DNA of 64,000 nt from contig JBBELK010000305.1 in assembly GCA_037783545.1 (NCBI GenBank), positions 1,364,001-1,428,000 of the forward strand. Reading direction: 5' to 3'. Positions 1 through 45,685 of the stretch are shown in pieces. The notes beneath the pieces are model-generated. The model searched no databases and had not been told where the DNA came from. It saw only the letters and a list, made by a program, of their open reading frames with translations. Within the stretch, counting starts at the first letter, position 1. Each line of letters begins with the position of its first letter. Made by a program: the position numbers and the translations under genes. Source of the DNA: Henricia sp. BOLD:AAB3569 (Eukaryota > Echinodermata > Asteroidea > Spinulosida > Echinasteridae).

Positions 1-2
1 CC

Positions 3-239
3 CCTGCTGTACTGTCGGGTATTCTGCGTGCTGTACATGTAGGCACTGCCACTTTCGACTTGGCATCTGCCAATGTCAAGCAAACTGTTAGATGTCTGAG
101 TCCCTTTGCACCTCTTGATGAATTGTGCGAAATGATCGAGATGGTTTGCGTAACATTTGGAGTGATCCTGCCTTTCTTCAGAAGCTTTCGGCTCAGCACA
201 CACATTCCAACACCGTATCCAGCGACGTACATGTATTGA
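3..239 (+). CDS. Possible 3' part of a coding exon cut by the window edge
   Basis: A reading frame is open from base 3 to a TGA at 237-239 (78 codons) without needing a start codon, so it could be the end of a gene beginning upstream of the window. The translation is mixed hydrophobic and polar and I do not recognise a family. No convincing acceptor, poly(A) signal or homology supports it, and one TACATGTA motif lies inside (about 33-40). A chance open frame is a real alternative. Confidence 0.18.
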   Translation, partial: PAVLSGILRAVHVGTATFDLASANVKQTVRCLSPFAPLDELCEMIEMVCVTFGVILPFFRSFRLSTHIPTPYPATYMY

Positions 240-668
240 CATTGAAGGAGGCCAAGTCGAAAAGTGGCGAATTTTTAAATTGACTTTTTTCGTATGGCGT
301 TTAAATTTCAACCTCAAAAAGTAATGAAAGTCACTCAATACTGTTCTGTGTACTAATATTTCCTGTAGCTATGCAGATATTGCATCATGCACTTTTTCAG
401 TTGAACCCAATTACAGGTGCACACACATTTGTACCAGTAGAAAAATCAATAAGTACAGGTACATGTAGGTATGTACAGTATGTAGACCTGTACATGTACA
501 TACGGTACATGTATGTAGCTTGCGCCCACTCTTTTAAACCAATTTGGTATTTATTAACTTCAGTCATTTCCGGTATGGATTTCTTCAAATTATTTCTTTG
601 TGCTTTGTTAGTGTTTAGCCTATCAGCAACTAGTGAAATTGTTTAATGCTAAGAATACATGTATTGTT
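240..668. other. No gene seen; palindromic TA motifs
   Basis: No supportable coding region. The stretch 455-520 is a cluster of TACATGTA-like and TACAGTA/TACGGTA-like motifs (GTACATGTAGGTATGTACAG and relatives), the pervasive dispersed motif of this window. Confidence 0.5.
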
Positions 669-1276
669 GATGTCCCCCAACGTGGCGCGGCCCCTAACGT
701 GGCGGGCTTTACTTTCCGTTCTCTCTTGGCGCAATAAACAATCTGTTGCACTTGGCATTAAATGGAAATAAAGTTCTCAAGTACATGTACCTTCATAAAT
801 TCCAAAACTAAAATACGGAGAAGAATCATTCAGTTACTAGAAATTCACCGGAATGTGAAGGCATCGCCGGTCGCTTCAGGTTGTCATGACACCATACACG
901 GAAGCCTGTAATAGGCATTTCACGTGAATAAAACCAGGCATACTGGTGTTGTGTACAGTGTCACAGTGTGTGCGTGCAAGTGGTCTTTGTGGGCCATCGT
1001 AGTAAGGCATCAAACCGTTTCAGCCAATCAGCGACGCGCTCCACGTTAGGCCACAGTCCGGGCGATTTCGGGAAAAAAGTGTTCATCGTTTTGTCCTGAT
1101 TGTTTGTGTTACTTTGTACTTGTTGATGAGTCAAAATATTAAAGTATTACTTTTTCTTGGAGCCTATGAATTATACTACAAGGTGTGTAAGTTTCAACTA
1201 ATTCTGCTAGGGGGTTTTGCTATAAGGTGAGCGGATTTCCAGTGAGTTGTCGAAGTGCGCCAAGTTAGGGGACATC
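669..1276. mobile_element. MITE-like element with terminal inverted repeats
   Basis: The left end GATGTCCCCCAACGTGGCGC (669-688) is matched in inverted orientation by GCGCCAAGTTAGGGGACATC (1257-1276), with two differences over 20 bp. The interior has no ORF. An internal phrase around 1021-1056 (GCCAATCAG...CACGTTAGG) recurs near 50052-50085, so related copies exist. No clear target duplication was identified, so the superfamily is not assigned. Confidence 0.55.
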
Positions 1277-1568
1277 ACTATACATGTATGCTGCAGCTAC
1301 ATGTATACCGTATACATGTATGTACTACATTCCGGTAAGGCGGTATTGCAGTGTACTATGTGAATCGTCTTAACTGCACAACATATTTGAATTTTAGGGC
1401 AGAAGTTTGATGAACTAGACATTCTATTATAAGTGACTGGAAGTATTTTTTGGCAAGACGTTACCCCGTGAATGAAGAACAAGTGTGTCGTACATTGTAC
1501 ATACCGGTACAATGTACAATGTATAGAACGATTCTCGCTCATGGCAGAAGCAATCCCGAGTACTTAAC

Positions 1569-1655
1569 CTGCAGCCGATTTCACGAAACCTGCATGCTTG
1601 TACAACTTGCCATTTTCAAAATGTAGGCTCCCCATTTTTTCATGAAATCGGCTGC
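1569..1655. mobile_element. Short MITE, same ends as 61849-62015
   Basis: The ends CTGCAGCCGATTTCACGAA (1569-1587) and TTCATGAAATCGGCTGC (1639-1655) form a terminal inverted repeat. The same termini bound a 165-bp element at 61849-62015, and a single end (TATGAAATCGGCTG) is seen at 9471-9484. It is non-coding and presumably non-autonomous. Confidence 0.6.
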
Positions 1656-1889
1656 CGTACGGTACTGTTCGTACATGTACATGTAGTAGTGGATTGGGAA
1701 CAAAGATGATGATAAACTACCGGTACATACTGTAGACGTTTTATTACATGTATCTAGAGAGAGTGAACAATCAATTGTTGGAGTTTAATTCCATAAACAA
1801 TTCTGTGCCAAAGAATCCTGGAATCTCTGCCTGTTTGGGAAATTCTGGACCCCTCTCTAAATTAATTTGTCTTTCCTAAATTACATGTA

Positions 1890-1990
1890 CAGTTGTAGTC
1901 AGAAGTTTACATACATTTGTGTTAAAACTGGTGTGCTTAAACTTGCGTTGTCACCATTTTTGTAACAGTCTTTACTAAAGTCGTGATTTT
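1890..1990 (+). mobile_element. Tc1-like transposon terminal fragment
   Basis: The sequence starting CAGTTGTAGTCAGAAGTTTA at 1890 and continuing to CATACATTTG closely resembles the terminal inverted repeat of Tc1-like elements of the Sleeping Beauty type, whose repeat likewise begins CAGTTGAAGTC and continues GAAGTTTACATACA (established knowledge). It is preceded by TA, the expected target, and that TA is the end of a TACATGTA motif. No opposite terminus was found, so this is a truncated relic; its inner limit is arbitrary. Confidence 0.55.
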
Positions 1991-2541
1991 GTGGAATTCC
2001 TCACGTGCTTGCAGTACTTAAAACATACTGTAGCTTGCACACCTTGCAATGGTTCGGGTAGTCCTGTTTACCATTTTGGGTGATGATGGTAGTGGTGTAC
2101 ATGTAGCAGTTACCTTTCTTGATTTTCCCACTTTGAGAAAGATGCACAACTCCCCTCCCCCCGCCCCCTTTCCTCCCTCCACCCGACAGCCTGCCTTTAA
2201 GAGGAACATCCTCTGATTGATTGGGCTGTATTCCCTGTCCATGTAATCTCGAGCGCAGGACGGTGCCAAATTAATTCCCCTATCTTAGCTGTCAGCAAAG
2301 CTTTGAGGCCCCAAGAATTTCATTTGCAAATGAGAAAAAATTGGAGTCTTTAGTGTCATTTGGGAAGCGGAGGAAATGCCCTGCAGTGGCAATGTGCACA
2401 GAGTGACTGCCTCTGATGCAAATTGAGTGTGTGTAGACAGACTTCACGTGAATTACAAAATACCGGTAGGGATATCTTCATCATTATGTACATGTAAATG
2501 TGTACTTTATGGTTTTCATACAAGGAAATACACAAGGAAAT

Positions 2542-2990
2542 GGGTCTTTCCACAGTAAAGGGGGTATTTTGGCAACACAGACCATATTTTCAAAAACATA
2601 CATGTACCTTTGTTTGGTCTCAAAATAAAAGAAATAAGTTTCAGTTGTTCTGAAGAGATACATGTACCGGTAACTTAGGCCCAAAAAGGGTTACAAATAG
2701 TGTGACAACTATGCCTATAAAGTTCTAAAATCCCTGTGTACAAACGCTCGTAACCGGGACGGTCTAAAATGTAACACAAGTGTCCGTCCCTGTTATGAGC
2801 AAATATTGGAAATTTGTACATGGGTTTTTTACAAAGGCATGTTGTCACACTATTTGTAACCCTTTTTGGGCCTAAGTTATCTCTTCAGAACAACTTAAAC
2901 TTATTTCTTTTATTTTGAGACCAGACAAATGTATTTCTTCAAAAATATGGTCTGTGTTGCCAAGTTGCCCCCTTTACTGTGGAAAGACCC
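2542..2990. mobile_element. Foldback element, GGGTC family, copy A
   Basis: This 449-bp element is almost entirely an imperfect inverted repeat. It starts GGGTCTTTCCACAG and ends CTGTGGAAAGACCC, flanked by the 4-bp duplication AAAT (2538-2541 and 2991-2994). It has no coding capacity. Three relatives lie at 14877, 26316 and 34835. The left arm carries extra TACATGTA (2599-2606) and TACATGTACCGGTA (2659-2672) where the right arm has only TA. The transposase source is unknown. Confidence 0.8.
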
Positions 2991-3040
2991 AAATCGTCAC
3001 ATACATACATGTATGTATGTACATGTACACCCTACATTTG

Positions 3041-3105
3041 TAGCTGACGAAGTGACGTATATATGCGGCTTTAAAGCCGCTGCACAGTCGTCACTTCGTC
3101 AGCTA
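3041..3105. repeat. Hairpin within a hairpin (micro-MITE?)
   Basis: Perfect 17-bp arms TAGCTGACGAAGTGACG (3041-3057) and CGTCACTTCGTCAGCTA (3089-3105) enclose a second perfect palindrome, GCGGCTTTAAAGCCGC (3065-3080). Both ends carry TA, which would suit a TA-targeting mini-element, although no target duplication outside the arms is required by the sequence. Confidence 0.5.
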
Positions 3106-3873
3106 TGCGACGAAATGTACTCTAAGCCATGACATGATCCTAAGGTTATTAGCAAATTTGTTTCTGATAATTAAAGTATTAAGTCTTGGTTTTCTATTGG
3201 ATTGAAAATAATAATGCCCCTTTTTAGGATTTTTGCAGCTCACATTTCACATGTTCATTTTTTGTGCACATGTGAAAGATGACAGATGGTGTGCATACTC
3301 AAACAAAATTGCACATTTGAAAATCACTTTCAAATTCAAAGTGTATTTTAATGGCAACTGACGGATTGGAATTTGGATCCTCAAACAAAAATGCACAAAT
3401 GTCAAATTTACTTCACAACTGTGGAACATGTTCCAACTGGTTCACAATGCAGCTATCGTGCGCGTGTTACCGGTAGTGTTGTAAAAACCACCGTACAGTA
3501 TTAAAGGCTGCACGAAATGGAGTTTTTATTTCAGAAAAATCATGTTAATAGACTACTTTCACATGTTTCTGTAAATTTAATCGAATTTATTGGCTGTATA
3601 CATTTGTAAGTTTTGTATGTTTATGCTAATGTCAATTTCCATATTCATAAGCAAAACTGTGATGTCATCTAACAATCAACAATTATGTAATCTTTGTAGA
3701 CTTGTGTACTGTATGTATGTAGCAGAGGTTTCTTGATACGTTTTTAACATGCATTCAGTTTACTGTTTTATTTACGTGTAATTTGTGCCAAGCAATCCTC
3801 CTCACTCCCCTAAAAGAATGTTTGAGTCAAAGAAAATCATGGATTTCCGAGAGACCACTGTGTCTGTAGGTAT
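3106..3873. other. No gene seen
   Basis: AT-rich non-coding DNA with scattered CACATTTG-like phrases (3240-3430). I see no supportable coding, RNA or bounded repeat feature. Confidence 0.4.
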
Positions 3874-4221
3874 TTTCCCACTAAACCTCGGGGGTGGCCC
3901 TGGGGCAACGTGGGGGTGAAAATAAGCCCCGATTCCCACTTGAATTTCTCACTTCCGCACCACCCCCAAGGTTGGGGAGCAAGTTCAACCACACTTGAGA
4001 CCAGGGTTAAAAATGTTGGCCTCAGGGCGAGATGCTTTCCCAAAGACGAGAACGGTAGTGTGGAAAGAGGCAGGGGGCGAGTTCTCACTTCTTCAAGTTC
4101 ACCACAGGGGGAGTTTGAGAACAACAAGTGTGAATCGATGTGGGGTTGAACTCGGGGGTGTGCCATGACCCCGGGTGGCCCCGGGGCGAGTTTGCCCCGG
4201 GATGGTTTTTCTAGTGGGAAA
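3874..4221. mobile_element. GC-rich MITE-like element
   Basis: Termini TTTCCCACTA (3874-3883) and TAGTGGGAAA (4212-4221) are a perfect 10-bp inverted repeat around a GC-rich core full of runs such as CCCCGGG and GGGGCGAG. This composition is unlike the AT-rich flanks. The two overlapping ORFs on opposite strands here are by-products of the GC-rich core. No target duplication was recognised. Confidence 0.4.
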
Positions 4222-7200
4222 GGCCTCTTGTAGGCTAGTCTGCTAACATTTCACTTCAGACCTGCAATGCGGTTGTTCCAAAAATTAGCTTTAAAAATAA
4301 AAAAATAAAAAAAAATAAAATTCTGCAAATAACCTACCAGTAATGGGACTTTAAAAAAAGCAATTAAATTAGTCCAGTGGAAAATCCTCCAATCTAAATT
4401 ACCAAGCCCAAAATCCACTTTTCCCAAAACAGAATAACATTCATGGTGATGATTCATTTGGGAAAAGCAAGACAATCCTTAGGATAACAATCCCCAACTG
4501 GACGATCGTCACGGTTATAAAAAATGCATGAGGCATGGGTGAATGTGCACCAGTGTGGAACAGCACCCAGGTTCCCAAGTGGGTTTTTTTTAAGATGGAT
4601 GAGTGACTGGCAGTGTTGGGTCTACCATTCGGGATCAATTAAACTGGACCCATGGGAGCGGATGAAATGAATTTTACTATCTTTCAAATATGGAGTGTTG
4701 GGCAGGGCCAGAAGGAAGACGACTTCATATTCCTTCAATTTAAAAAAATATACATGTACAGTACATGTATGATACTAAAATCAGTAAAGGAGGCCACTAA
4801 AGTCGTCCACTGTACTAGTACATACATGTACATGTATCAGTAGTTTTTCCTCGGTATGAAAAAAAAAAAAAAATGAATAAAACAAATATATATATTTATA
4901 AGAGGGGAAGTGTAAAAAACAAAAATACACGTACGGTACTTCACAAATATCATGATAAAGAATACAAAAAATATCAATCTGAAAATACTAATGCGTATAT
5001 TTCCATTCCTGATCCAGTGTACATGTGTATCGACCAAAAAGCACACATGCGACTACTTTGCTCATTGCTACAAGTGGATTCACAGTTTCACATCTATCCT
5101 TTTTTCACTCACATAAATTTGACTAGCGTCACCTCAAGAAAATGTGGCGTGGCATAAACCTACCGGGTATGTACTGAAAACATCAAATTCAACTTGGACG
5201 GCAAGTGTTTTTGTGATGTTTTTTTTAATTTTCAGTGCGTTGGTTTATAAAATACCAGTTCCCTTTAGCTGCAATTTCGTGAGGTGGAAGGCGATGAAGA
5301 CTTGCAAATAGTGGTTAAAATGTTGTGGTCCCATTGCTGACCACATTACGACATATGAGATGGCAGGTATTTTGTTCATTACCATGCTAAATAACCCTTT
5401 TTAATTTTTATTTTTAAATTGCATTTTTAGCAGTGGAGCGATTTCCTTTGAATGAAGGACGACGAAATTAAACTGAAGAGTTTGTACTTACAGGTCGACG
5501 TACCACTGTGTGTTTTTGCTTAGTTTATGTGACATGGTGGTTGGAGTTTCAGGAGATCTGTCAATGAAAAAAAGAAAAAGAAAAGAAAACTAGATGAATG
5601 ATACTGGTACAGACTTTCAAGCTTTCAGACAAATTTGAGGAATAAGAGCGCGCGCACAGTAGAAACGGGTGGAAACGACCCGTGCGCTCAGATGCGGACT
5701 AACCGCGCACTGTTGAACTTGTTTGACCCTACTCGCCGCAACTGAGGCGGGCAAAATTTCCGTTCCGTATGTAGGTCGCCGAGCGAGTATGAATTGGGCT
5801 TAAGACTGGTCAGAACATGTTCTAACTGGAATTATTTTTCTGGAAATTGTACCAAGGTGATGATAAATACATGTAGTTTTGTACATGTAGTTAAATGTTA
5901 TTGTGTTTTACACTTGAATGCTTTAGGCGCAAAAACCGCTAAAAGCCACTTCCATGAAAAATTTGATAATGATGTCAAGTGAAAGCTGTCAGTGCCTAGT
6001 ATACAATGATCAAATACATGTAGTTTCTGCTTCAAAACCCGCTAAATCCCACATTTAAGCTATATATATCCGAAAACTCAGGATTTTTTTTGGCAGAAAC
6101 CGCTAAACACCAACTGCATTTTTCGGCAAAAGCCGCTATGTCCACACAGCGCCAATCAGAATGTGTGCATCAGATCACGGGTCACATTCAAGATGGCAGC
6201 CCCCACCATGGCCGATTGTTCACGCTGAGATGCGGGATTTTTGCCAATTTCCTGCCGAATTAACTCTAATAAAAAAAGAAACTTTGATGAAACGGACAAA
6301 CCTGTGATGGTTATACATGTACCATCAGGCAAACGAAAACTCCATCAGCAACGTATTTCTGCCCGTTTTATACAGCCAAAGTAGATCGTTACAGTGGCAA
6401 CGATAAGATGGACTTAGCAGGTTTTGCAGCAAAAAGCAACAACATTTCATAGAAATTATTTAATAGGAAAAACTTAGATTTTTAAAAATGTGATATTTTA
6501 TTCAGTGATGAATAACCTTTTCATTACACTAAAGTTAAACTCAGCAAATTTGAACATAGAAACGTACATGTACTTCACAAATATCATGCTGTTTTTAAAG
6601 AAAAGTCCCCAGGTGATTTTAGCGGCTTTGGCGTCTAAACTCTTCACTTGCTTTTTAGACACAAGAATATCACAGCTGAAAGCACACCATATGCTCAGTT
6701 AGTTTTTTTGAGACTTTTTGTTTCGTTAACATTTTGTATAGGAAGCATGTACGTGTACATGTACGTCTCTATTTAACCAATGTACTGTACCAGTATACAT
6801 TACTATACACATACAGTTTTACAACCCTTATCAATCCATTACAAACAAACAGAGGAGCAATAAACAGACTTCAACAAAAACAGAAAACAAACTTCCGGGA
6901 CACTTGACCGATTTTTAATTACATGTAATACATACATATGTACATGTAAGGGCAGATAAATGTTCAGTTTCAGTGCACAATCGGTCCTCAGACACAGGCC
7001 TACATGTACATGTTTAAATACATTTGACATCTCTCAAACTAGGTTGAAACCAATCTTGGGCTGTCCCGGTTGAGTTTTGAATTTTTAACCTGATGTTCAA
7101 ACCCGTGTTGTTTCACACTTGGCACTCAAACCTTCTTTTTTTTGCCCTTGGGCGATTTCAATCCCGCTTGTTTCACACTAACTTTTTCAACCCAGGACAG

Positions 7201-8755
7201 CCTAAATTTACCCTAGGTCAAACTTTTTTTTCAACCCTGGTTGTCCTAAAAATTAGAAGTGCTGAAGTAAAAAATTGAATGTTGCACAGCTAAGTTGAGT
7301 TTTGCGGTGTTTCCAAAGAAAATGAAATTTCAATTTCATGCCTTTAAACAGCTAGAATCCCCCCTTCCACATTTTTTTAGTTTTTCTGTTTATCATGGCG
7401 GTGTATGTGTCTACAACACCATCACAACTTGTTTTTCACAAAAAATCGACAGACTTTTGCTTAAAACGTTCCGACCCTCTTCACCCAAATTCTGAAACGC
7501 TCGAGGTCACTCGGCTTGTTTATCAACAGGGTGTTGACGTCATCCTGAGAAACATACAAAACGGTCTGTGCAGTATTGAATGGAAAATACACGAAGTGAA
7601 TCTTTATCATGCCTATTTTGTCCTTGTAATTCAAAATACAAACGTGAAAAACACTTCATGTAATATGACAGCAATCTACTATTACCTGTTTTGTGAAAAA
7701 AACGATGAAATTGTGGCTCACAGTGACTCTCTTTTGAAGTAAATACTGGTGCATTGCGACGGGTGATTTTGTCACGGAACGAACGGCATTCACAGCGGTC
7801 TGTGTACGGTCCACTGCGGCGTAGTTTCCACGTGTTTGGACATCGGCCGTACAAGTTATAGAATGAGCGACTCATTTTTCTCTCTCTTGGTAATAGAAAA
7901 GAAAATCTTTCTGCTCTTTTTTTTCCATAGTGTCTGGTAAAACATGCAACCACGCAGCTACTGGGCATATCTCTGGCTTTTTGGAACAACAAAATTCTTC
8001 AAAAAACACCATCTAAAAGAGACGGTTTTCTAAGTTGTTTGCGTGTAAACGTATGGAGCTAACTATCGTGTTGACTTCTCTTTCTCAGGATTGCGTCACG
8101 GGGTCACGCGCATATCATGAATACCTAATGAGCGTTTCAGAAATCGCGAAAATCTTATTTTCGAAAAGCGCACTTTTGCGTGCAATTTATCCACTTAAAA
8201 CCGACAATTAAAAAATAATAAAAATCCACGTCGGCAAGAGGGATGTTTGGACTATCGAAAAAAGCCTAAATGCTGGATTTTCGTCAAGGGGCATTCTTCC
8301 TCTTTAACAATATAGTAGTTAATGAAGAAATGTCTTGTGAGTTGGGCACTGCCAAGACCAAGTGCACCCACAAATTTCTTTCTGAAATGTTTTAGAAATA
8401 TATGTACATATGTGTCCTGTGCTTAAAGGTTTAGTAAATTGAAAATTATCAACCATTTGTTTTTATACACGAATCAGAAGATCAAAATGTTGCAGACAAA
8501 GGGGCAAACTGAAATTTGTTTTCATTTCAGAAAGAAGTGACCTTTTCTCTACTTCGAAAATTTCTTGACAGACGAGGGCGCTGTTTATTGTTAGTCATGG
8601 AGGGAACCCACAGTTGAAAAACAAAGAAAGAACATTACATTTCAAACAGTAGCGTAGCCCACTGATCCATTTCTGACCTAAACAAACTTGTTGGGCTTGT
8701 TGCAAATGACATACATGTACTAAACAAATTCAGTAAACTGTTACAGATCATAACA
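4222..8755. other. Long stretch without supported genes
   Basis: AT-rich DNA with many short ORFs on both strands and no recognisable domain. Notable parts are an A-run (about 4858-4872), a GC-richer patch at 5645-5790, a region rich in phrases such as GTTTCACACT and CAACCC (about 7040-7270) that is probably degraded inverted-repeat DNA, and overlapping ORFs of 115 and 150 codons on opposite strands (7395-7992) that I could not support as genes. Confidence 0.4.
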
Positions 8756-9005
8756 CCTGGGGCCAATTTCATAGAGGTGTTTAAGCACGAAAATTTGCTT
8801 AAGTACAAAAAACTCTTTCTCAGTAGAGAATGTTACCAGTGAAATCTTCATGTGATAGAAATAGTGTATGACCAGTGTTGGAGAACTGTTTAATTACCAT
8901 GACAATCTCATGAAATTTTTGCTGGTAACCTCATTTTATCAAGCAAGGTTTTTCATGCTTAAGCAATTTTCAATGCTTAAGCAGCTCTATGAAATTGGCC
9001 CCAGG
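8756..9005. mobile_element. MITE with CCTGGGGCCAATTTCATAGA ends
   Basis: The left terminus CCTGGGGCCAATTTCATAGA (8756-8775) pairs with TCTATGAAATTGGCCCCAGG (8986-9005), a perfect 20-bp terminal inverted repeat in a 250-bp non-coding element. Internal TTAAGCA phrases (around 8780 and 8955) also form part of the inverted arms. The superfamily is not assigned because no clean target duplication is seen. Confidence 0.7.
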
Positions 9006-9257
9006 AAATCACTGAAAATGACAACAACCTTTGTACACAAGTCAATGGAGATTTTCTCTGCTGTCCTGAGGTGACATCACGGATTTGCTCATGAATATGG
9101 AAATTACATTAGCATAAAAATAGAAAACTTGCAATTACACCAAAATGGAACAATCAAATTTTCTGAAATTGACCAAAATGTGTACTATTATTATGTTTAA
9201 TAAAAATCCTATTTCACATGTCCTTTAATGGTTTATGTGTCAACCAAAGAATGTCCT

Positions 9258-9408
9258 ATGGGTACAACTACATGTAGTTGCCAGAAAGTAGAACATGACC
9301 AACTTGCGGCAACCAAGATTTTTTCCAGTTGCCTTTTGCTCCCAGTTGCCGCAAGTTGCTTCCATTTGCCGGAAACACCAGTTGCCACTATGTACGCTAT
9401 AAGGCTTT
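9258..9408. mobile_element. Fragment of the CAACTGG-rich element family
   Basis: This fragment matches, in inverted orientation, parts of the 16339-16860 element: CAGTTGCC/GGCAACTGG phrases, the stretch around AAAGTAGAACATGA, and an end-like GTACGCTATAAGGCTTTATG. It contains TACATGTA (9269-9276) at a position where the 16339 element has plain TA (16532-16533). Confidence 0.5.
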
Positions 9409-9518
9409 ATGATGCAAGTCTTGTGTCATAACCTTTCACGATGCAAGTTATGTACATGTAAGCACCTTTTTATGAAATCGGCTGATGGCTGTCAAAATGT
9501 ACAACGTACAGTAGTGCC

Positions 9519-23618: not shown

Positions 23619-23869
23619 ATGCCTCACCAATCAAAGGAGAACCAGTCAAAAGATTTGTTTTTGTTGGGCAGAGGATGATTGCTTACTATTTTAATCTTAA
23701 TTTCTTTATGTCTCTGGAGATTGCAGCTGGTACAAAAGTCTATGGGTGATGCTCAACACAGGCAATACAGTAAACTGCATATTTACACTGCACATGTAGA
23801 AAATGGATTATTTCTTAAAATATTTTTGGCAGGGTTGTCAGCAAGTTTCTTGTGTCAAGTCTTGACGAG

Positions 23870-25490
23870 CAAGTCTCAATTTATTAAGGTCCAAAGTCAT
23901 AAAGAGCAAGTCTCGATTCAAGTCCCAAGTCTTGGAGAGCAAGTCCCAAGTCTTGGAGAGCAAGTCCCAAGTCTTGGAGAGCAAGTCCCAAGTCTTGGAG
24001 AGCAATTCCCAAGTCTTGGAGAGCAAGTCCCAAGTCTTGGAGAGCAAGTCCCAAGTCTTGGAGAGCAAGTCCCAAGTCTTGGAGAGCAAGTCCCAAGTCT
24101 TGGAGAGCAAGTCCCAACTCTTGGAGAGCAAGTCCCAAGTCTTGGAGAGCAAGTCCCAAGTCTTGGAGAGCAAGTCCCAAGTCTTGGAGAGCAAGTCCCA
24201 AGTCTTGGAGAGCAAGTCTCGAGTCTTGGAGAGCAAGTCTCGATTCAAGTCCCAAATCTTAGAGAGCAAGCCAATTCAAGTCCCAAATCTTAGATAGCAA
24301 GTCTCAATTCAAGTCCCAAATCTTAGACGGCAAGTCTCAATTCAATCTCAAGTCTTGGAGAGCAAGTCTCAATTCAATCTCAAGTCTTGGAGAGCAAGTC
24401 TCAATTCAATCCCAAGTCTTGGAGAGCAAGTCTCAATTCAATCCCAAGTCTTGGAGAGCAAGTCTTGATTCACATCCCAAATCTTAGAGAGCTTGTCTCA
24501 ATTCAAGTCCGAAATCTTTGAGAGCAAGTACTAAATTCAAATCCCAAGTCTTGGAGAGCAAGTCTCGATTCAAATCACATTAGACAGCAATTACATGTAA
24601 GTCTCAATTCAGTCCCATGTCTTGGACAGCAAGTCTCAATTCAGTCCCAAATATTAAAGAGCAAGTCTTGATTCACATCCCAAATCTTGGAGAGCAAGTC
24701 TCGATTCAAGTATCAAGTTTTGAAGAGCAAGTCTAAATTCAAGTCCCAAGTTTTTTAAAGAGCAAGTCTACCTGTAAATTCAAATCCCAAGTCTTGGAGA
24801 GTAAGTCTAAATTCAAATCCCAAGTCTTGGAGAGTAAGTCTCAATTCAGTCCCAAGTCTTGGAGAGCAAGTCTTATTTCAAGTCCCAAGTTTTGGAGAGC
24901 AAGTCTCAATCCAAGTCTCAAGTTTTGGAGAGCAAGTCTCAATTCAAGTCCCAAGTCTTAGACAGCAAGTCTAAATTCAAATCCCAAGTTTTGGACAGCA
25001 AGTCTAAATTCAAATCCCAAGTCTTGGAGAGCAATCCTCGGTTCAAGTCCCAAATCTTAGACAGCAAGTCTCAATTCAAGTCCCAAACCTTGGAGAGCAA
25101 GTTTCGATTCAAGTTCCACGTCTTGAATAGCAAGTGTCAATTCAAGTCTCACGTCTTGGAGAGCAAGTCTTATTTCTTGGAGAGCAAGTCTCATTTCAAG
25201 TACCAAGTCTTTGAGAGCAAGTTTGGATTCAAGTCCTAAGTCTTGGAGAGCAAGTCTTGATTCAAGTCTCAAGTCTTGTAAAGCAAGTCTTGAAGAGCAG
25301 ATCTCAAGACTTGGGACCTACATGTAATTCAAGTCTCAATTCAAGTCTCAATTCAAGCCCCAAGTCTTGGAGAGCATGTCTCGATTCAAGTCCCAAGTCT
25401 TGGAGAGCAAGTCTTGGAGAGCAAGTCTCGATTCAATTAAATGCCAAGTCCGACAGCAAGTTTTAAGTCAAGTCCCAAGTCATTACATTA
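23870..25490. repeat. Minisatellite built of CAAGTC..TTGGAGAG units
   Basis: About 1.6 kb of tandem repeats. From about 23920 to 24240 the 21-bp unit CCAAGTCTTGGAGAGCAAGT(C) recurs about fifteen times almost unchanged. Further on, longer units add TCTCGATTCAA or TCAATTCAAGT and diverge. Because 21 is a multiple of three and the unit lacks stops in several frames, repetitive ORFs exist on both strands (for example 23679-24293 plus, 23838-24269 minus). These are probably not genes. CCAAGTCTTGG inside the unit is a perfect-arm palindrome. Confidence 0.9.
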
Positions 25491-27884: not shown

Positions 27885-30636
27885 AAAGTTGGCTTTTCCT
27901 GTTTTTGACAACACCGTCAAATCTTGTGATATTGGGTGACTTTAATATCCACATGGATCGGCCACAAGCGAGAGATACCATCAGATTTATGAACTTCCTT
28001 GAGTCCTGCAATTTGACCCAACACGTCTCATCTCCGACTCACGTCAATGGTCATGTGCTTGATCTTGTCATAACGCGTTCGTCGTTGAACATTATTAGGT
28101 CTGTAGACGTGTTTGACCCGGTCTTGTCTGATCATTCGCTAGTAACCTGTTCCCTAGATGTCGGCAAACCCCCAAGGGAACAGAAATCAATTGTCTTCAG
28201 AAAGCTCAAGAAGATTGACTATGACAGTTTTCGTCTGGACATTAGAAATTCCCCACTTACCGTTTTGGATTTACTTGTGGGGTCCTATGATACAGAACTG
28301 TCTGTGCTTCTTAACAAGCATGCCCCACTGCATTTAAAGACTTTCACTCTTCGACCGAGTACACCTTGGTTTACGGAAACACTGAGAGCTGAGAAACTCA
28401 AACGCAAAAACTTGGAGCGAAGCTGGCGACGTACACAACTCACCGTTGACAGAGAACTTTATAAGACACAAAGAAATAAGGTAGTGAAGTTGATAAATGA
28501 AGCCAAAGCCAACTACTATCAGAATCTCATCTCTGAGAGCAGGGGTGATTGTCACCAGATTTTTCGCGTGATTGATAAACTCCTTTGTCGCAAGACAGCT
28601 ACTGTACTACCCGCACATAACTCGCTGGTGGAGCTAGCTAATCGCTTTGCCTGCTTCTTTCATGACAAGATTCACAACTTAAGAGGAATATGTGATGCTG
28701 GCAGAGTAACCTGTGCCGGCGACTCGGATCCCATTCTTCCTGGCGGATGTGAACTTCGACTGGAAGGGGTCACGTGTTCTCATTTTCAACAGGTCATACG
28801 CAAATGCCCACTTAAGTTCTCCGATCTGGATCCGATACCAACCAAGCTTTTAAAGGGTTGCTTGCCGGAGATCGCACCGGTTATTACATCGATCGTCAAC
28901 TCTTCTATCACACAAGGTGTTTTCCCAGAGGCGTTTAAGTTGTCTACCATCACACCGATACCGAAACTACGTAATCTGAAATCTGATCAGGCAGATAATC
29001 TCAAGCATTACAGGCCTATCACCAACTTACCGTTTTGCTCCAAGATTCTCGAAAAGATAGTAGCGCAGCAACTTATCAATCACATGACGAGACTCGATCT
29101 GCATGAAAACGTTTATATGCTGACTGGAAACGTTTTCATGGAACAGAGACGGCCCTTGTCCGTATTCAGAATGACATCCTGCACAACATGGACCAGGGTA
29201 AGGTTTCAATCTTGGTGTTTCTTGATCTCAGTGCCGCATTTGATACGCTGGATCAAGACACATTGCTTCGCCGGTTAATGACACATGTAGGTGTGTCACC
29301 GAACTCGCTTAACTGGTTTACATCGTACCTGAAGGGGCGCCACCAGAAAGTTAAGATCTCCAGCTCCTCTGTAAATCACAGAGGTTCACCGTCCTCAGCA
29401 GAGAGTGCCTCTTATCCGTTACAGTTTGGTATTCCCCAGGGCTCTGTGCTTGGCCCACTCATGTTCAATGTGTATGCTACCACTGGGTGACATCATCCGC
29501 CGCCACGGTCTCGGTTACCATTTCTATGCTGATGACACTCAATTGTACATCTCTGCAAGACCAACGCCCAATGATGTGCATGATCGAGTGTTAGCGATGG
29601 AGGCATGCTGTGACGATATCAGGCGTTGGATGGCGGTGAATTTCTTGAAACTTAACGATGATAAAACGGACGTTCTCGTCGTAGGATCATCCACATCGTT
29701 GACCAAGATTCCTAGAACTGTGGTTTCTATAGGAAACCTTGATATCACCGCAGTATCCGAGGTCAGGAGTCTTGGAGTGACATTTGACATGAATATGAAT
29801 ATGCAATCCCACATTAGGAATGTGTCTCGTTCTGCTATGTATCACTTGTACAACATAAGTAAAATCAAACGGTATCTTGGTCAATCAGCCACAGAGCAGA
29901 TAATTCATATGCTGGTTACTTCTCGTATTGATTATTGTAATGCTGTTCTAGTAGGTCTCCCTACCTCATCCCTAGCCCCTTTGCAGAGGGTACAGAATGC
30001 TGCAGCCAGGCTGCTCACTGGTACAAAAAAGTATGATCACATCACCCCAGCTCTCAAGCAATTGCACTGGTTACCAGTCAAGTATAGGGTGATCTTTAAA
30101 GTTTGTCTTTTGGTATTTAAGTGTCTCCATGGTTGTGCTCCTAATTATTTGTGTGATCTGCTAAGTACTAGAGTTCCAACTATATTTACTCGTTCTGCGC
30201 TAGACACGTCTCGATTATATTGCCCTAATGCCAGGCTGGTTTCCGCAGGTGAGAGAATGTTTTCTGTGGCTGGTCCCCACCTGTGGAACCAGCTTGAAAT
30301 TAACCTTAGGGAGTCTTCCAGTGTACAGAGTTTTAAGTCGGGTTTGAAAACTCATCTTTTTAAGCAAGCCTTTCTTAATTTATAGGTTAGTGGTTTTTTT
30401 TTTTTGGTATTTGGCTGGGTTTATATCGTATGAATTTGATGTAAATTATTTAATGTATTGATCTATACCTTTTTAAGCAGGCTTTAATGTAATGTAATTG
30501 TAATGTAATTGTAAGTATTGATCTACATGTACACCTTTTAAAACATATTTATGCTGTAATTTAATGTGTACAGCGCCTAAGAGCATATTATGGATCCGGG
30601 CGCTATATAAGTGTTATTATTATTATTATTATTATA
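27885..30636 (+). mobile_element. LINE (L2/CR1-like), 5'-truncated, frame broken
   Basis: A non-LTR retrotransposon with an APE-type endonuclease tail (GDFNIH at 27935-27952, SDHSLV from 28127), a linker, a reverse transcriptase (KHYRPITNL, FLDLSAAFDT, GIPQGSVLGPL, YADD at 29525-29536) and a C-terminal region with RVQNAAARLL and LHWLPVKYR, typical of L2/CR1-group elements. The endonuclease N-terminus is missing. The 3' UTR ends ACAGCGCCTAAGAGCATATT...GCGCTATATAAG plus an ATT repeat (about 30616-30636). Broken frames mean no active protein. No TACATGTA occurs until the 3' UTR. Confidence 0.93.
27905..30385 (+). pseudogene. LINE ORF2 pseudogene with two frameshifts
   Basis: Coding similarity runs in frame 2 from 27905, shifts to frame 1 between about 29114 and 29125 (just before RFHGTETAL-type coding), and returns to frame 2 near 29472. 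The second shift looks like loss of one AT pair in GTGTATGCTACC, since the same region in frame is expected to read through TAT and ATG codons. Both lesions lie in the reverse-transcriptase region. Otherwise the body has no stops, which suggests a fairly young copy. The ORF runs to a TAG at 30383-30385 followed by a T-run. Confidence 0.85.
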
Positions 30637-42425: not shown

Positions 42426-44738
42426 AGGGAAAAAATTGCACGTCTTTGGCATGTAAATAAACAAGCAGGGGTGCGAGTGGAGGGGGCATAGAGAGTAGTG
42501 CTTTTAAGCCCGTATTCCTAAACGTGTGAGGGCGCTCGAACTACATGTACATACGTACATGTACATGTACAAGTAGGTGATTTGGGGGGAAATGGCCATA
42601 CTGTAGCCGACAGTGGAAAATGGGGTGAATACGGCCGTACGTGGGAAAAAGTCACAATACGCGGACAGCAGTCCCGTGCTGCTCGCGGGCACAGATTTCC
42701 ATTAAAAGTTAACGTTTGGAAGGCCTGCGAACATAGCGCATATGGTGTTCAAACATAACGCGGGATGGGCACGGGCCACTTGACAGCACCCTCGCGCGTA
42801 AGTGACTGATCTCATATAAATTTTTTTTTACAGTATACGCCAAATGCTCCCATTTTTGTTGGAAATTTTGTTGGGTCAGGCGCCCACCCCCAATTGCACG
42901 CTAAAAAAATAAAAATATTGTACATGTATTACTTGAAAAAAATTATTACTTGATCATGGTACCGGTACAATTTATTGCTATAGGAATTTTCTTTTATTGT
43001 CAAGGTGAAAACAAACAAATTTTAAATTTTAAAAAATTATTTCATCAAAGGAATCTGCTGAAAAGTTTCTTGCAAACAAATGTGTTGAAGCTTGAAATTT
43101 AATTGACGATGCACACAACAGCAAAAATCAGAGAAAAAGTTGGAGTCTGCATGCAATTTCATCAATAACGTACAACAATAATTAGCATGTTTGTCATGCA
43201 CAGGTGCACGTGGACAGCTGGGCTGGCAAAAACAGACAGAATGGTCTTCATGGTTAATTAAACACCATTTCACAATCAAACGCATCATGGACATTTTTCA
43301 CAAAATAATTACACCAGATGCTACATGTACATGTGTATGCACAGATCGTGGAGTCCGGAAAAACAATCAGGGTACATGTATGTAAAATGTACTATACAAT
43401 TTGTTGAAGCATCCCGTCGCATTTTAAATGAAGATTGCATGTACACCGTACAAGTATACATCTGATATCGAGTGATACATTACATGTATAATGGTACATG
43501 TAGATGTAGATGTACATGTACTTCATGGTTTGCCCGTATGTTTGCCCGTATGAAATTGACCCAGGCTCTTACATGTAGCCAGTATTTCACGTACATGTAC
43601 CGGTATGTACTTTTAAAACCGGCCAACTACCATGTACACATGTACATTATAAATTTATTTCCATTTATAAATACATGTACATGTACATTTTGTGTAAATG
43701 TCAGCAAAAATCCCTGAAATTTTGCAAAAATGAACTTCTTTGCTTGCCCATTTTGTGCAGAGTTTTTCAGTCCATACAGGTGTGTCAAATTCTTGGCTCT
43801 GTGTGTCCAATTCAGACCTGCCAAAAGTGGTATTCTTCATAAGAAAACTGTATTTTTCAAAAATATGCATAGATGAGCTTACGAACAAAGATTGAACATT
43901 GCTGCAATGCTCCAACTTTATTAGTTACAGGCCGTGTACATCACGTATTACACAGGGCAGTCGCCTTCTTGCACTTCTGGAGAAGTTCGTTATTTAGTGC
44001 ACGTCGATGGCAAGGAATTCCTGCTGCTTGACAGTAGATCTTGCTACATGTAGTTAAACTGTGCGCGATGCTAAAATCCGAACCACACAATGTACATCGT
44101 ACCGTACAGGATTTTCTCCTTTCTGCGGTGGATGTATGAAGTCCCATTTCTCCGAGTATTCTGCTTTGTACGATTGCTTCCTGTTATCTTTTTTGAAGGT
44201 CGAAGCCATATAAATATTCACTTCATGCTCAAGCAGCATAAATGGCACGGTCTGCGTATAGACCGCCATTCATCTATCCTAATGCCTAGTGCTTTTGTAT
44301 GCAACGCTACGATTGGCTAGTATGCCCGGTCCTACAGCAGTATTGTACACCCCGTGCACCGATTACGGACAAATCACATCCTCGCTTACGAGTGTCAAGC
44401 CTCGTGACATCATGTCCTGCATAGTTTTGACTTGCAGCCGTTTTTACTATCAAGCCTAGTTTACACTCGCTACCGCGCGCCTTAAACCAGGATTGTTAAA
44501 GGCGTGTCAAGACGGTCAAAACGCGTATTTTTGTAGGGAAAAACGTATAGTCGTATTTTCAACAATTTCCCGTACGAAATACGGCCAAATCGTACTACAT
44601 GTACATGTACATGTAGTTGGCAGGTCTGCAAATTGCGTCGAAATGTGTTCTTCTGTCATGTTTGTTGAAGTTTTTATGCGTGGTGTGCAGAAAGCACAGT
44701 GTTCTCCACTGCTAAACATTTTGTCAGGGCGTGCTGAG
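42426..44738. other. No gene seen; dense TA-motif arrays
   Basis: AT-rich DNA with many TACATGTA/TACCGGTA arrays (42542-42575, 43320-43330, 43480-43530, 43590-43605, 43670-43690). Short overlapping ORFs lack recognisable content. Confidence 0.4.
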
Positions 44739-44784
44739 CAGCGCCCTCACGCAGTGAATCAGTGTTTGCCGCGTGAGGGCGCTG
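44739..44784. repeat. Perfect 14-bp hairpin with GAGGGCGCTG arms
   Basis: CAGCGCCCTCACGC (44739-44752) and GCGTGAGGGCGCTG (44771-44784) are perfect inverted copies separated by 18 bases. The GAGGGCGCT core recurs across the window (near 8573, 52766, 54989, 57689, 62110). Confidence 0.65.
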
Positions 44785-45685
44785 TTCAAAATGAATGCAT
44801 GCCACTGTTATGGCCGTTATCGACCACAGATTGGGTCGTCGATGCGATAGATACTGGTATGTTTGGTAAGTGAATGCTACATGTAATAACACCAGTGTCC
44901 AGCGAATCATGTTTGGTGACTTTACACCTAAATGCACATATATGTAATTTTGGAATGACTTGGCTGTACTTTTGAAGTGTTTTAGAGAGGAAAATGGATT
45001 ATTTTTGTCAGGGCGGCCAAGTTTTTTTCTCCGGGCGGCAAAATTTTTGTCCGGGTGCTAAACGCATTAATGCAGATGTTACGTATGGTACATGTACACG
45101 CTGTCTCAGTTGCATTTCAAATTGCGTTCGGGTGCTCTCATTTTGTTCCATCCACACAAAAAAATTTGTCAATGTCTTTGAAAAACATGAACCAGACTAA
45201 AAAGTGTTTAGAACCAGCCGGGCCTTTATGCATTTAAAACCACCCATGTGACTGCTTTCCACCAATAACAATGCAGTATAAACTGTCGTACGGTACATGT
45301 ACCGGGTAGGTACAGTACATGTTCAAATTTATAAATGAAGAACATTGTACATACATTGTACATACAAGTGGACTTGGTCATGTTGGTTGACTCTGCAGAG
45401 TACATGTACACATGTACCGGTACATTGTATGTTTATTTGAAGAATGAAATTTATTGCTGCAGCCATAAATTTGCACGATGTTCTTACCGGTATATGTCTA
45501 TTTGAAACACATCAATTTATTTTAATGACAGAAAGTGTTGGTTTTGAAATATTAACATGAGCTGGACAGTCGCCCTACCCGGTATTGTACTCGTAAATTA
45601 TAAGTTTTTGTTTTTCATGTACTGCCGATTCTGATGCTCAAAATCTTAACCAAGGTGAAACAAAAGTGGGTCGTTTTAAAAGTGC
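44785..45685. other. No gene seen
   Basis: Contains a decayed repeat (45225-45290: TTTAAAACCACCCATGTGAC..CCAATAACAATGCA..TAAACTGTC) resembling 37268-37325, and TA-motif arrays at 45284-45430. Confidence 0.35.

Follow-up and report, generated by a model that had tools for sequence, protein, structure and literature searches.

Stacked TA-anchored steps in a Henricia foldback repeat as probable excision scars of Tc1/mariner-type transposons

The target of Tc1 transposons is the dinucleotide TA. Published passages on Tc1 excision describe non-complementary 2-nt 3′ overhangs that, on end joining, leave a few bases behind (PMC13148408, PMC4490562). In somatic cells of C. elegans, the typical scar is given there as +4 (78%) (PMC13148408); if that figure is reckoned from the TA before insertion, the scar differs from the +6 step TACATGTA that recurs throughout this report. 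In germ cells of the same animal, according to these passages, repair is predominantly error-free, and its error-prone part runs mostly through polymerase theta, with deletions (PMC13148408, PMC4490562). For Sleeping Beauty and Frog Prince, the scar at TA is given as C(A/T)GTA, that is, TA-CAG-TA or TA-CTG-TA (PMC3878927), and for Stowaway elements in a β-amylase intron of the Triticeae several distinct scars at one TA and a new element at a TA already scarred are described (PMC1925063). Work on such footprints usually concerns one site at a time.

The site described here lies in a 64,000-nucleotide stretch of Henricia DNA (the window; positions without other label are those of this stretch, and no feature is assigned a strand). 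A sequence-only reading had proposed that one TA in a hairpin arm was expanded by two 6-bp steps, and this holds exactly: TACATGTACCGGTA occupies 2659..2672 of the left arm, with the cores CATG and then CCGG, its partner in the right arm is by arm comparison a single, unexpanded TA at 2878..2879, and the flanks pair, the arms on either side of the scar being 100% complementary over 39 bp and 95% over 56 bp. The arms belong to a foldback repeat at 2542..2990, delimited by search, alignment and folding, which has the ends GGGTCTTTCCAC...GTGGAAAGACCC and at least 40 genomic copies. Folded as single-stranded DNA, this 449-bp near-palindrome gives a hairpin with z = -28.8 in which the extra bases form a one-sided bulge. 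Another step in the left arm, TACATGTA at 2599..2606, is present neither in the family consensus nor in the homologous contig considered below. The flanks of the repeat read as a 4-bp target duplication, AAAT at 2538..2541 and again at 2991..2994, and not as TA. Over the family, the consensus is a near-palindrome of 436 bp with ends GRGTCTTTCCAC, and target duplications in copies read by eye are 4 bp of the form ANNT (AAAT, ATAT, AGTT, ACAT, ATGT). Rfam at its gathering threshold gave zero matches in the window.

The genome searched comprises 740.7 Mb in 2104 contigs, and the hairpin query yielded 40 scored copies from 2623 first-look candidates. The 40 copies aligned are the window copy and 39 others (L009-L047) picked by likeness to it; four pairs share flanks and so are not independent (L041/L043, L013/L038, L027/L037 and L009/window). 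Because a single TA is the majority state among the 40 copies, the 12 bp at 2659..2672 are derived. Footprint-like TA steps occur in 14 of the 40, at six TA positions (57, 113, 116, 218, 245 and 394 of the consensus), with the cores CATG, CCGG, CATG+CCGG, CAG, CGG, CAACATG, CATATG, CAT and TATG; the step at 218 is accompanied by loss of a neighboring A. The remaining 26 copies lack such steps, L014 among them having TA-TT-TA and L020 another 6-bp insert at 113. Thus, as had been anticipated from the window copy, aligned foldback copies have TAs that are expanded in some copies only, with CATG, CCGG, CAG, CGG and a few variants as cores.

One way to account for this pattern is an ancestral foldback master copy that already bore a step, which later copies inherited or exchanged by gene conversion. 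The identical double step CATG+CCGG is common to three copies (window, L009 and L011), and the 14-mer TACATGTACCGGTA recurs both in L009, on the homologous contig, and in L011, which is elsewhere in the genome and unrelated in position; the expansion is thus not private to the window copy. Moreover, steps at 113 and 116 are exclusively in the left arm; none of 38 readable right arms is stepped there, with identical local sequence. That the copies were selected for similarity to the window copy can account for some of this asymmetry but not clearly for all of it, since such selection favors left-arm steps at 113 and not at 116. Against a master copy, one and the same TA bears CATG, CCGG, CATG+CCGG, CAT or TATG in different copies, and the eight copies stepped at 113 do not cluster by substitutions (random sets were as close in a fraction of 0.437; the distance between the window copy and L011 is 0.085, versus a median of 0.089). 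Equal steps also occur outside the foldback family, and a master copy would cover part of the family pattern, not the genome-wide one. We regard this account as unlikely; the substitution pattern among the carriers of the 113 step favors repeated hits on one TA over one inherited event.

Contig C333, which contains L009, is collinear with the window at 1-7964, 8000-9510 and 43000-45500. It is probably the homologous contig of the other haplotype, a large segmental duplication being the alternative. Over 10,870 aligned bases, the two differ by 247 substitutions (2.3%) and 72 gaps, with 37 simple indels of 4-11 bp. In this stretch, which is scar-rich, so that the shares apply to these 10.9 kb, 21 of the 37 are TA-anchored (TA to TA-X-TA), 13 of them non-tandem and 8 tandem copies; the next-best anchor, AT, has 12 indels, 4 of them non-tandem. 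A footprint core (X = CATG, CCGG, CAG, CATTG, CCGGG or CAACATG) is present in 13 of the 21, 10 of these 13 being non-tandem, and the 8 outside this class have X = TG, CA, TAAG, CCAG, ATGG or CCGGTA. When random insertions drawn from window sequence were simulated 2000 times, the mean per 37 was 0.69 TA-anchored (maximum 5) and 0.024 in the footprint class (maximum 2); the simulation has no tandem duplication, so the fair comparison is with the non-tandem counts, 13 and 10.

Single steps can be read directly from this comparison. At 44878..44885, the window has TACATGTA, a clean CATG step (TGC-TACATG-TA-ATAAC), and at 45300..45308 it has TACCGGGTA, a CC-G-GG step (ACATG-TA-CCGGG-TA-GG), the homologous contig having plain TA at both. 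Oppositely, the window has plain TA and the contig TACATGTA at 44308..44309 (CGC-TA-CGATT versus CGC-TACATG-TA-CGATT) and at 7822..7823 (GGCG-TA-GTT versus GGCG-TACATG-TA-GTT). Footprint-type steps at TA with few cores therefore recur beyond the hairpin arm, and family alignment and contig comparison alike contain inserts between two TAs where relatives have one. A palindromic insert of ~240 bp with ends CTGGGGCCAATTTCATAGAG, at ~8756-9005 of the window, is missing from C333. An all-against-all comparison of the window and L009-L060 gave 2157 flank-filtered indel events. With the foldback family excluded and events merged by context, 29 of 140 distinct non-tandem inserts of 4-11 bp are TA-anchored, CATG (6) being the commonest core and TA (5) the next; this merged set includes the L009 comparison and still counts a few events twice, each seen on two different shifts.

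The same indels bear on a second explanation, growth of a hexamer microsatellite by replication slippage of TACATG or TACCGG units. Some units do form chains (two units in 48 runs, three in 12 and four in 2, versus 402 single units), in which the commonest adjacent pair is CATG-CATG (n = 30), and of the 21 TA-anchored indels found in the comparison with C333, 8 are tandem copies. But the units are mostly single, and the 13 non-tandem indels, at sites such as CGC-TA-CGATT, are not expansions of a pre-existing tandem repeat, as a TACATG microsatellite would give. Nor does slippage predict mixed order, several cores or filler bases. Clean single steps at unique TAs thus disfavor slippage, which we consider very unlikely as the origin of the steps and which survives for the lengthening of some chains. 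The sequence-only reading had held that slippage cannot start from a single TA in non-repetitive DNA; some CATG-CATG chains could be later slippage.

If end joining at TA produced the steps, the ends that were joined should be legible in the cores, and word counts in a 254-kb sample (the window and L010-L028) speak to this. Among the 16 inverted end pairs placed between TAs without filler, only CA..TG (46x), CC..GG (31x) and GG..CC (9x) exceed five times expectation; TA..TA reaches 3.6x, and the 3.5x of CG..CG comes from 4 cases. Observed and expected counts for CA..TG are 271/5.8 without filler and 46/6.4, 37/6.5, 22/6.5 and 34/6.5 with one to four filler bases; those for CC..GG are 54/1.7 without filler, 10/2.3 with one base and 6/2.3 with two. 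With one filler base, CA..TG stands at 7.2x, CC..GG at 4.4x and GG..CC at 0.6x, and with two at 5.7x, 2.6x and 2.4x. The 3.4x and 5.2x of CA..TG at three and four fillers are mostly stacked words (CATGTATG, CATACATG, CAGTATG), not filler, and the apparent rise of CG..CG with two filler bases consists of CGAGCG, which is part of the foldback family itself. When the anchor is changed to AT, CA-TG or GC, CATG and CCGG are at ~1x or less; CATG with an AA-TT anchor gives 22/14.7, and CG-CG gives 4/1.3.

Shorter cores follow the same ends. CAG/CTG is found 98 times versus 30.3 expected and CCG/CGG 47 times versus 15.8; of the two-base cores, CG is at 67 versus 35.5 and GC at 34 versus 35.9. In CC-N-GG, N was G or C in 9 of 10 cases. 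The cores are thus few and have the inverted symmetry of an element start joined to an element end, and their length varies at the junction through trimming or filler, more weakly so genome-wide. This spectrum is the prediction for 2-nt 3′ overhangs CA (or CC) that are ligated intact, shortened by one or two bases, or filled. By analogy with Sleeping Beauty, the CAG class could alternatively stem from elements that have CAG termini and overhangs of 3 nt. The GG..CC word TAGGCCTA (the 9x class) stands at 16 places in 16 different contexts (window, L012, L017, L025 and L027) and may be a third scar type.

Over the whole genome, TACATGTA occurs 255,577 times, versus 91,197 for the reversed control and 22,405 for the equal-composition word TATGCATA; TACCGGTA, the CCGG word, occurs 31,038 times versus 10,655 for its reversed control (2.9x), and TACANTGTA, with one filler base, 47,098 times versus 26,685 (1.8x). 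The genome-wide excess is strong for the CATG class and moderate for the TACCGGTA and TACANTGTA classes. The reversed control ATGTACAT is itself enriched, at 116 versus 7.0 expected in the 254 kb. Because 94 of these 116 touch an intact TACATGTA (64 on one side only, 30 on both) and 22 do not, chains and near-chains account for most of the control excess but not all of it. In this sample, a second unit next to TACATGTA, whether before or after it, is incomplete more often than it is complete.

The words are also unevenly spread. Per 10 kb, TACATGTA/TACCGGTA stand at 23.6/3.9 in the window, 45/8 in L009, 22/7 in L012, 22/5 in L013 and 24/8 in L026, and at 0-7/0-2 in the remaining 16 loci, with TATGCATA at 0-2 everywhere. 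The density of TACATGTA in the window is ~7x the genome mean (151 in 64 kb versus 255,577 in 740.7 Mb). On contig C1, TACCGGTA is clustered: the first 100 places listed crowd together at, for instance, 742-775 kb and 1428-1463 kb, and elsewhere leave stretches of >100 kb empty. Palindromic words as common as TACATGTA and TACCGGTA might be functional, for example binding sites under selection, the indels then being gains and losses of sites. Yet, wherever the change could be followed, the words arise as whole insertions, also within a transposable repeat, and the junction variants would break a fixed word; we give this explanation hardly any credence.

The sequence-only reading attributed the two cores to Tc1/mariner elements whose ends begin CA and CC. 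Tc1-like transposases are plentiful, PF13358 and PF01498 each having at least 150 scored matches; the mariner profile PF01359 gave one weak match. L058 represents the matches with a 396-aa open frame (at least 18), which were grouped by frame length only, and L059 and L060 represent those with frames of ~419 aa. L058 ends TA-CACTACAAAA... and L059 ends TA-CACTACTCAAAA..., both with inverted ends CACTAC...GTAGTG adjoining TA; the left end of L060 has no preceding TA. Both Tc1-like proteins contain PF01498 and PF13358, with 34 residues between the second D and the E (DD34E spacing), and the PDB entry that L058 matches best is that of Sleeping Beauty SB100X (E = 1.4e-31). By domains, DD34E spacing, TIRs and TA duplication, the L058 and L059 families are Tc1-like, the TA duplication being confirmed against an empty site in L058 only. 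Read by eye, the first D of the catalytic triad is N (FSNESRF) in L059 and L060, the two copies read of an abundant family whose open frames are long, and D in L058. Homologues of the L058 transposase number 2717, and the best 120 of the 2717 include fish, arachnids and one named as bacterial.

The left flank of L058 is found, nearly full length and at 86-100% identity, at nine more places, so L058 lies inside a repeated block. Among 12 paralogous places read (L061-L072; contigs C708, C159, C585, C293, C69 and others), four keep the exact pre-insertion sequence, L065 is 2 bp shorter and seven are diverged. Such pristine empty sites demonstrate insertion at TA, not excision. At the L058 donor site, TACATGTA is present in 0 of the 12 places, and an element in one copy with its own scar in another was not seen, which, from a single donor site and 12 places, is weak evidence.

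The CC class fared differently. No element with CC..GG ends was found by the profile searches or by an inverted-repeat search of the window and L009-L028. That search, for TA-flanked repeats with CA or CC ends, returned 3 + 3 among 106 outermost candidates. In four of five that were examined, the arms match beyond the TA, so that TA is not the boundary; on detailed reading, no donor was recognizable in the fifth, L024 1456-3929, and the sixth candidate, L017 4895-5209, falls within the foldback repeat. The L054/L056 family was considered as the source of the GGCC class, but the bases outside GG/CC are TATA and a second look gave no match, and the family was set aside. Of the two kinds of element predicted, then, those with CA..TG ends exist (L058, L059), and the assignment of TA-CCGG-TA to an element beginning CC has found no such element behind it in these searches.

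Even for the CA class, donors are few. The donor-end pattern TACACTACWMAAAA occurs at 603 places genome-wide versus 194 for its reversed control, and, with 255,577 copies of TACATGTA, scars outnumber recognized donor ends several hundredfold. Under neutrality, a few elements jumping often over long times would suffice for this excess, which also leaves room for extinct or unrecognized donors. It is, together with the joint presence of both core types in hot regions, what speaks for a third explanation, in which an enzyme of the host, such as a domesticated transposase or a different nuclease acting at TA, cuts TA and short non-templated CA or CC ends are added, no transposon ever having been inserted. 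Oppositely, the inverted symmetry of fixed end dinucleotides is what transposon ends supply, and CA..TG-ended donors are present in the genome. We know of no host enzyme that cuts TA and adds ends in this manner, and we judge this route as improbable as slippage.

Taken together, these comparisons make it likely, in our judgment, that cut-and-paste transposons of the Tc1/mariner type left the 12 bp as two end-joining scars, one stacked on the other, in a serial process that has marked the genome many times. We infer its excision step, which of the two events came first and that a CC...GG element exists. First, an element with CA...TG ends would enter the single TA and duplicate it (TA-CA...TG-TA). 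Second, its excision would leave two bases of each end, and retention of both overhangs at joining would give TA-CATG-TA. Third, an element with CC...GG ends would take one of the new TAs and leave likewise, giving TA-CATG-TA-CCGG-TA. Trimming at the junction (CAG/CTG, CCG/CGG) or added bases (CA-N-TG, longer) would yield the variants, and the cycle would have been repeated many times across the genome, concentrated in hot regions that include the window.

A wider proposal, which we hold tentatively and at somewhat less than even confidence, is that in this genome excision scars are a main source of short indels and the cause of the excess of certain TA-flanked palindromes, with ~2 x 10^5 CATG scars, hundreds of times the recognized donor ends, hot domains and new TAs that are hit again. 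If scars accumulate to such numbers and amount to between about one third and one half of the 4-11 bp indels that separate homologous contigs (13 and 21 of 37, in 10.9 kb of one scar-rich region), models of short indels, ages of repeats and analyses of over-represented words in such genomes would have to include them. Cores and junction variants would then record directly, in animals closed to manipulation, which ends the elements had and how germline breaks were repaired, and an excess of TA palindromes in other animal genomes would be a fossil record of elements that jumped, one that outlasts them. Two other features of the window, noted in translation, are a pair of open frames at 27887-30385 that by eye resemble a LINE-type reverse transcriptase split by a stop or frameshift, and an open frame at 23679-24293 with many QVPSLGE repeats, a minisatellite.

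Among the literature matches listed, in titles, the starts of abstracts and the passages cited here, we met no genome with scars in the hundred thousands or with so large a share of short indels. The chemistry is known; the scale is unusual. As in C. elegans Tc1, in the passages cited at the outset, the target is TA and end joining leaves a few bases. In contrast to that system, +6 steps dominate here, they are inherited, and the word occurs 255,577 times; to call TA-CATG-TA the canonical Tc1 footprint, as the earlier reading did, is therefore too strong, +4 being typical of the C. elegans somatic scar. ISY100 of Synechocystis, of the Tc1/mariner family, is also among the closest systems, although bacterial and studied in vitro (PMC2170065). 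The Sleeping Beauty and Frog Prince scar, as given in its source, equals the 3-bp class here (98 versus 30.3), which in this genome is minor, the 4-bp class being the main one. Finally, the Stowaway scars, so far as their source describes them, belong to one intron in one plant tribe, whereas the scars described here are genome-wide.
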